Assembly (NCBI RefSeq): GCF_000685155.1
Contig: NZ_JMIY01000001.1
Location: 203,742-267,741 of the forward strand
DNA: 64,000 bases
From: Candidatus Methanoperedens nitratireducens
GTDB taxonomy: Archaea; Halobacteriota; Methanosarcinia; Methanosarcinales; Methanoperedenaceae
Reading direction: 5' to 3'
Position 1 is the first letter of the stretch. The number at the start of each line of letters is the position of its first letter. A program made the position numbers and the translations under genes. A model generated the notes under the pieces. That model had not been told where the DNA came from. It searched no databases and saw only the letters and a program-made list of their open reading frames with translations. Below are positions 60,959 to 62,011 of the stretch, piece after piece.

Positions 60959-61032
60959 ACTACCCCGCAAGGGCTGAACTTCTTGCTTCATGCAGAAAAA
61001 CATGTTTTGTCGCATCGTAATCTATAAATAGT

Positions 61033-61054
61033 TTGTTCGTATATATACGAACAA
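61033..61054 (+). promoter_or_regulatory. 22-bp palindromic operator after a TATA box
   Basis: A perfect 22-bp palindrome with core GTTCGT-N6-ACGAAC (61035-61052), starting two bases after CTATAAATA (61022-61030). A factor bound here would cover the transcription start. Identical core and spacing to 43967-43984 upstream of the kor operon. Confidence 0.65.
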
Positions 61055-61162
61055 GTAGTGGGCAGATAAAAAAACTTTTTTAGAAACCATCTCCTTCCTA
61101 TTCTATCCAATAGTCTGCCCACTATACTACTTAACTGAAACATTCTAAAATCAACTGTTTCA
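61055..61162 (+). ncRNA. Candidate structured small RNA
   Basis: Directly after the TATA box and palindrome, AGTGGGCAGA (61057-61066) pairs perfectly with TCTGCCCACT (61114-61123), extended by GTAGT/ACTAC with a bulge. The 47-nt loop holds an A7/T6 stretch and ATCTCCTTCC, whose CTCCTT is complementary to Shine-Dalgarno sequences. A second hairpin TGAAACA/TGTTTCA (about 61136-61162) is followed by a T-rich stretch near 61188. No ORF. Promoter, two stems and T tract fit a regulated sRNA; not proven. Confidence 0.45.
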
Positions 61163-61277
61163 AGAACCGCTATTCACATAATTATATATTTTTTATCTCT
61201 ATGTTAGAGGAACGTATGTATTTATAAACCCAATACACATATATCTTATTTAAGATGGGGCTAAATGTGAGGGAGAT

Positions 61278-61436
61278 ATGAAAGAAACAATAAAAGTTAA
61301 TGGCTACAATATAGCAGATATGAGGTCAACTGATTGGAACTTCTATGCTGCTGGAAGAAAAATAAACCGGATGATGGCTATTCGAGCAATGCATATTGGT
61401 GTTAAAGTTACTGCGGAATTGAAGCGGAGCTGTTGA
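61278..61436 (+). CDS. 52-residue small protein
   Basis: ATG 61278 is preceded by GAGGGAGAT, a good ribosome binding site, and by TATTTATAAACCC as a plausible TATA box. The product starts MKETIKVNGYNIADM and ends VKVTAELKRSC; it is basic with a likely beta-hairpin then helix and shows no membrane segment. No family recognised. The signals before it make translation likely. Confidence 0.5.
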   Translation: MKETIKVNGYNIADMRSTDWNFYAAGRKINRMMAIRAMHIGVKVTAELKRSC

Positions 61437-61660: not shown

Positions 61661-62011
61661 TTAGCCCATAACAACCATGACATTCCCAATATGATCGCCC
61701 ATAGATGGGCAGACCATCATATGACCGGGCATCATCTGTCCAGGCATCATTTGTCCAGGCATCATTTGTCCAGGCATCATTTGTCCAGGCATCATTTGTC
61801 CAGGCATCATCTGTCCAGGTTTCATGTGTTCAGGCATCATATGATCTGGTGGACAGCCCTTCATATCAGGCATCATCTGCCCGTGCGGACAGCTCTGAGG
61901 ATTATCGACGTTTTCGCTGCTTACTTCAGCCATAGCAGGCAGCGCGGTTACTAGTACAGCAGATATTAGTGACATCAATATCAATATTAACATCTTTTTC
62001 ACTATACTCAC
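61661..62011 (-). CDS. Secreted Met-rich repeat protein, possible copper binder
   Basis: A 116-residue protein with a signal peptide (residues 1-28, MSIVKKMLILILMSLISAVL, then a VTALPAMA cleavage region) and a mature part of His, Cys and Met motifs (CPHGQMM, HMMPEHM) followed by six PGQMM pentapeptides and PGHMM. Met/His-rich periplasmic proteins of this type usually bind Cu(I) or Ag(I). The next gene upstream is a P-type ATPase, but that one is of the Ca2+ type. The repeat is probably disordered. Confidence 0.7.
   Translation of the reverse strand: MSIVKKMLILILMSLISAVLVTALPAMAEVSSENVDNPQSCPHGQMMPDMKGCPPDHMMPEHMKPGQMMPGQMMPGQMMPGQMMPGQMMPGQMMPGHMMVCPSMGDHIGNVMVVMG
61726..61815 (-). repeat. 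15-bp tandem repeat inside the Met-rich gene
   Basis: Six units of CAGGCATCATTTGTC (plus strand), four identical in a row (61741-61800) and one variant on each side with one or two substitutions. Each unit encodes PGQMM. The perfect identity implies recent expansion and copy-number instability. Confidence 0.95.

Follow-up and report, generated by a model that had tools for sequence, protein, structure and literature searches.

Promoters autoregulated by MsvR have been described in Methanothermobacter and Methanosarcina acetivorans, and the published forms of their MsvR box are TTCGTAN4TACGAA and TTCGN7-9CGAA (PMC3729527). The M. acetivorans protein (MaMsvR) binds this motif only when reduced and loses its binding on oxidation, and derepression upon oxidation has been proposed for it (PMC3729527). 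The locus described here, from Candidatus Methanoperedens nitratireducens, resembles those promoters in the type of operator placed near the TATA box and start and in the presence of a genome-encoded MsvR. However, the known promoters serve protein genes (msvR and the fpaA operon), whereas here the target would be a family of non-coding RNAs.

Precedents also exist for the RNA itself. In Methanosarcina mazei, sRNA162, sRNA154, and sRNA41 are intergenic archaeal sRNAs for which masking of ribosome binding sites through single-stranded regions or loops has been published. Going by their descriptions, they are set apart from the present family: sRNA162 has 191 nt and three stems and has been reported from Methanosarcina only (MM2441/MM2442 interval), and sRNA154 shows conservation in Methanosarcina and nitrogen control, whereas the RNA reported here is class-wide, has a core of about 65-100 nt, and, in the branch that we call M-type, lies behind a redox box. 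In bacteria, CcsR1-4 of Rhodobacter are multi-copy stress sRNAs, as is LhrC of Listeria, and both have C- or CU-rich loop motifs. The likeness lies in the presence of several hairpin sRNAs that are homologous to one another, have pyrimidine-rich loops, and are co-induced by stress; the differences are that CcsR and LhrC are bacterial and that the CcsR RNAs arise by processing of a 3'UTR and are Hfq ligands. The resemblance would be a convergence, with no sequence relation expected.

Within the window, as we call the whole 64,000-nt stretch of DNA analyzed, sequence inspection and folding located all the parts of an RNA locus between positions 61016 and 61196 (Table 1). The original prediction had described a TATA box, a palindromic operator, a 10-bp perfect long-range stem enclosing an exposed CTCCTT, a second hairpin, and a T-rich tail, all without an open reading frame (ORF). 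These parts were recovered, with one correction: the stem is there, but it is 11 bp long, closing a 47-nt loop. The BRE/TATA region reads CGTAATCTATAAATA, and the large loop contains CTTTTTT and ACCATCTCCTTCC. CTCCTT has an unpaired probability of 0.75-0.99 in the folded window copy, and the pyrimidine-rich loop around it occupies the position of the conserved C-rich motif of the family. Compared with dinucleotide shuffles, the RNA strand is more stably folded (z -3.8, 1/200), and the opposite strand shows no significant folding relative to its shuffles (z -1.4). The only ORF of at least 40 aa overlapping the RNA is a 51-aa frame on the minus strand, interrupted by stops in most family copies, which agrees with the predicted absence of a coding sequence. 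The element has its own promoter and no conserved ORF, as expected of a trans-acting sRNA that masks ribosome binding sites.

Table 1. Features of the RNA locus, with positions counted from the first letter of the window
Feature	Positions	Strand	Basis or remark
Archaeal promoter: BRE-like CGTAATC and TATA box TATAAATA (61023-61030)	61016-61030	+	Sequence
Operator, perfect 22-bp palindrome TTGTTCGTATATATACGAACAA	61033-61054	.	Core TTCGTATATATACGAA at 61036-61051, predicted MsvR box
Predicted transcription start, just 5' of the stem	61053-61055	+	Inferred from TATA spacing
Closing stem, 5' strand TAGTGGGCAGA	61056-61066	+	Sequence; covariation in relatives
Closing stem, 3' strand TCTGCCCACTA	61114-61124	+	Sequence; covariation in relatives
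U-tract CUUUUUU in the large loop	61075-61081	+	Run of at least 4 T common in the family
Unpaired pyrimidine-rich loop ACCAUCUCCUUCC, including CUCCUU (61091-61096)	61086-61098	+	Folding
Second hairpin, TGAAACA (61136-61142) with TGTTTCA (61156-61162)	61136-61162	+	Folding; copy-specific, outside the family core
T-run TTTTTT, possible terminator	61189-61194	+	Sequence; copy-specific

The best evidence against a chance arrangement is that the same anatomy recurs, at 9 loci in this genome and, in relatives, at hundreds. Within the genome, a DNA search found it at seven loci and an operator search added two, with 79-87% identity among the aligned copies. In named genomes, the stem pattern matched 45 times in Ca. 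Methanoperedens or archaeal elements and 13 times in bacteria, and a palindrome adjoined the stem in 45/45 of the former versus 0/13 of the latter. The bacterial matches, which lack the operator, are chance tandem repeats and were ruled out as members. In viral contigs, the stem pattern was nowhere matched exactly.

A covariance model built on the RNA part alone, with the operator left out (R1), matched all 34 Methanoperedenaceae genomes, with 324 copies in total and 1-26 per genome. It also picked up weak relatives elsewhere that follow the same plan but differ in their stem (TGAGCGGG/CCCGCTCA) and loop (AACCCCCACTCCCC). A second, broader model (R2) matched 173 of the 186 genomes of the order, including 117 of the 118 good ones. 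Across a sample of the phylum, R2 matches came from 83 genomes of the order and 21 of a sister order in the same class; outside the class, one of about 284 genomes matched (E 8e-5). We call the order and the class Methanosarcinales and Methanosarcinia because of the taxonomy of Methanoperedens. Additionally, the genome of the window contains 18 matches to a hairpin-RNA model at E ≤ 0.01: 9 with the operator, 8 without it but with the same hairpin plan, and a doubtful one (L199).

These copies belong to two branches, a C-type with the loop AACCCCCACUCCCC and an M-type that includes the window copy. The operator separates them: it is present at the top RNA-model loci of 30/30 genomes for the M-type versus 0/47 copies of the C-type. 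The operator is missing from the C-type branch, so the family cannot have had redox control as its ancestral function. M-type copies also occur in tandem clusters of two or three, 150-320 bp apart (L053, L056, L055, L036, L058, and L019), and each copy in a cluster has its own TATA box and operator. Rfam release 15 gave no covariance-model match in the window, nor for the RNA in relatives at E values up to 0.5. No account of the RNA in Methanoperedens or Methanosarcina was found in the literature searched, to which the 2009 sRNA catalog of M. mazei did not belong; some C-type copies may be present in that list as unnamed candidates. Going by these searches, the sRNA family is new in sequence, range, and predicted regulator; the kind of RNA is itself known.

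Many copies, inverted-repeat arms, and some tandem clusters could also be the signature of dispersed MITE-like mobile repeats, or of chance inverted repeats, rather than of RNA genes. We regard this as very improbable, given that copies with 79-87% identity are not recent, several of them hold their place in isolate BE2012, promoter and operator are kept at fixed spacing, and the stems covary around constant loops. Recent near-identical copies at non-orthologous sites, the hallmark of a MITE, were not found among the copies of this genome and BE2012. In the BE2012 orthologue of the window copy, the upstream sequence is unalignable and conservation extends from CGTAATCTATAAATAG (the BRE) on through the RNA, with one compensatory change (G-C to A-U) in the second hairpin. 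Other orthologue pairs have operators identical at 16/16 positions and 5' stem strands identical at 10/10, with poor identity upstream.

Covariation of the stem in relatives, proposed in the original prediction as a check, was found. In an alignment of 31 diverse members, gathered with a structure-aware model and hence biased towards structure, double-sided changes occur at 8 of the 10 pairs and 91.6% of stem cells are paired, a value reached by 0/500 shuffles. Within the nearly uniform Methanoperedens set, 3 pairs are compensated. Furthermore, unrelated stems carry the same loop (GCGGTGGTC/GACCACCGC, GAGGTGTGTGT/ACACACACCTC, and GTGGTCGGAA/TTCCGACCAC). The constant parts of this loop are the U-tract, seen as four or more consecutive T in 63/63 M-type pattern matches and 46/47 C-type copies, and the C-rich motif, which is CCACCAUAAUCCCC or CCCCCACUCCCC. 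We are highly confident that the window copy is a genuine gene for a non-coding RNA.

Read in reverse complement, several loops resemble a Shine-Dalgarno sequence plus ATG (e.g., GGAGGTGGAAATGG), as they would if the minus strand encoded a short peptide. This explanation is scarcely credible, as in most copies a stop follows within a few codons (e.g., ATGGTGGTGTAA), no minus-strand promoter is common to the copies, and the C-type has no ATG.

The promoter is held at a constant distance from the RNA. Among 61 M-type copies, 49 have a TATA-like 8-mer that starts 32-33 nt 5' of their stem, and in C-type copies the box mostly lies 29-32 nt 5' of the stem. Copies thus begin 29-33 nt downstream of the TATA box, and with this fixed spacing transcripts are expected to start at the stem. 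This constancy, the operator lying between the TATA box and the predicted start, and the covarying stem strongly support the earlier proposal of an operator-controlled small RNA.

An element of this kind could instead be a cis-acting 5' leader or attenuator of the next gene, which at this locus is a 52-aa ORF (61278-61436). This ORF has been conserved in BE2012, and the loop shows complementarity to the start region of the ORF (-18.5 kcal/mol, in the top 0.9% of random windows); two C-type copies also lie about 35 nt 5' of paralogous small ORFs. However, the neighboring genes are not the same from copy to copy, a TATA-like box near 61220 belongs to the 52-aa ORF itself, and the tandem arrays, at 150-320 bp spacing, have a promoter for each copy, so that we consider a leader improbable. 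As a neighbor, the 52-aa ORF (plus strand, downstream of the RNA) is a candidate target; it has no Pfam match.

The nature of the operator had been left unnamed in the original prediction. The palindrome fits the MsvR redox box, with the core TTCGTATATATACGAA located between the TATA box and the predicted start. The genome encodes an MsvR (L083/L211) that scores 268 bits with NCBIfam NF053755 against a cut-off of 220, and MsvR exceeds the curated cut-off in 33 of the 34 family genomes. Each of the 30 msvR genes examined is preceded by a TTCG-N8-CGAA box, which is TTCGTAGAAAAACGAA in the genome of the window. Sites within one mismatch of TTCGTATATATACGAA number seven in this genome, six belonging to copies of the RNA and one to a DUF1858-like gene. 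With the motif as the link, the window RNA gene is probably under MsvR control. Another regulator sharing the site, for example, a second MsvR-like protein (144 bits), may act instead.

This second protein, of the HTH-V4R type (L080, 430-1707), falls below the MsvR cut-off, and its gene is divergent from a rubrerythrin gene; the interval between the two has no TTCG-N8-CGAA box. The seventh site is an exact copy of the box (operator 412200-412215, C7 of the same genome) just 5' of a 70-aa gene (MTITKEMTIEEVVNQYPETMIVFMRHGLHCVGCHVS...; L067, 1273-1485), presumably DUF1858-like, which is likely to be a further MsvR target.

The CUCCUU of the loop overlaps the usual archaeal 16S anti-Shine-Dalgarno tail, and masking of ribosome binding sites through it had been predicted. 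Masking is plausible, but the pairing of the window copy is explained by pyrimidine composition alone, and CTCCTT itself is not what the family conserves in the loop. Target prediction, which had also been proposed, was run on the 49 genes of the window with start sites picked partly by Shine-Dalgarno score, a choice that favors the start-region (TIR) result; for most loops, pairing was better at start regions than in coding sequence (p 0.006 for the window copy). The outcome was dominated by pyrimidine composition, and shuffled versions of the window copy's loop did just as well at start regions (-10.27 versus -10.34 kcal/mol). The sister loops L190 and L194 surpass their shuffles in start-region pairing by 2.5-3 s.d. 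The anti-Shine-Dalgarno sequence is not uniform among copies, and no conserved target was identified among the 49 window genes. Anti-Shine-Dalgarno action of the loop is consistent with these data and putative, and our judgment is evenly balanced on whether the family RNA acts mainly through pairing with mRNA start regions.

Alternatively, in the same RNA gene under the same MsvR control, the C-rich loop and the U-tract may bind a protein, making the RNA a sponge or part of an RNP. We consider this alternative rather unlikely. Across the class, the motif AACCCCCACUCCCC hardly varies on stems that are themselves unrelated, and within single Methanosarcina loops it is doubled, which a protein-binding motif would be expected to show; class-wide constancy of CCCCCACUCCCC would also be explained by a protein-binding loop, as would a window copy whose start-region pairing is no better than that of shuffled loops. 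Against it, no protein partner is known, and M-type loops vary (CAUCUCCUUCC, CCACCUCC, and CCACCAUAAUCCCC), some of them surpassing shuffles in start-region pairing. The doubled loops (CCCCCCACTCCCC-ATATGA-CCCCCCACTCCCC) occur in L160, L164, and L158, from Methanosarcina-type genomes. The more specific idea that the loops are antisense to Shine-Dalgarno plus AUG (CCACCAUAAUCCCC against GGGGAUUAUGGUGG) was weakened by intermediate forms (CCACCACUCCCC, in L144/L151), because these suggest that CCACCAUAAUCCCC derives from an ancestral CCCCCACUCCCC.

The explanation that we moderately favor is a non-coding RNA gene of the MsvR-controlled M-type branch whose RNA pairs with Shine-Dalgarno and start regions of mRNAs. 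The family is multi-copy and, as the model matches indicate, universal in Methanoperedenaceae, and it belongs to a broader RNA family found across the class Methanosarcinia, in methane producers as well as methane consumers. We infer that reduced MsvR on the palindrome between the TATA box and the start would block the promoter and that, on oxidation, its release would let all M-type copies be made together. Transcription from just 5' of the stem would give a non-coding RNA of about 70-140 nt, whose predicted clamp fold would expose the U-tract, a possible Lsm site, and the pyrimidine- or C-rich loop. Most likely, this loop would pair with G-rich Shine-Dalgarno or start regions and lower or re-set translation of the mRNAs. 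In this manner, the M-type branch probably lets the oxygen-sensitive Methanoperedens adjust protein synthesis under oxidizing conditions. The broadest formulation is a class-wide family absent from the catalogs searched, with constant U-tract and C-rich loop, its Methanoperedenaceae branch placed wholly under MsvR (several to about 20 copies per genome) as an RNA regulon set off by oxidation, which would brake or re-set translation in nitrate- and metal-reducing methane oxidizers; we advance it tentatively, at slightly less than even confidence.

To our knowledge, the oxygen response of strictly anaerobic methane archaea is poorly known and few MsvR targets have been described. If true, an RNA family behind MsvR boxes would mean an MsvR regulon that acts after transcription, and this would be the first family of archaeal small RNAs that we know to be linked with a defined redox repressor. 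Methanosarcina, which is genetically tractable, has C-type members, so the RNA core can be tested for its function directly. The models R1 and R2 would yield a new Rfam family spanning the whole class.

Two further observations concern small genes. In C1 of the same genome, two C-type copies (L198, 1271-1492, and L200, 1199-1492, both on the minus strand) precede paralogous small ORFs (MAEY...VINxPNIxKDAI...HYDIPMFVQKEG) by about 35 nt, and a Shine-Dalgarno sequence lies in the gap; the same RNA may here be used in cis. The oxygen-stress protein MtrI was rejected as the identity of these ORFs because they lack its four-cysteine zinc ribbon. In the window, a 116-aa ORF on the minus strand (61661-62011) has no Pfam match; it adjoins a P-type cation ATPase gene, and has a signal-like N-terminus and tandem PGQMM repeats, which are methionine-rich and possibly related to metals.
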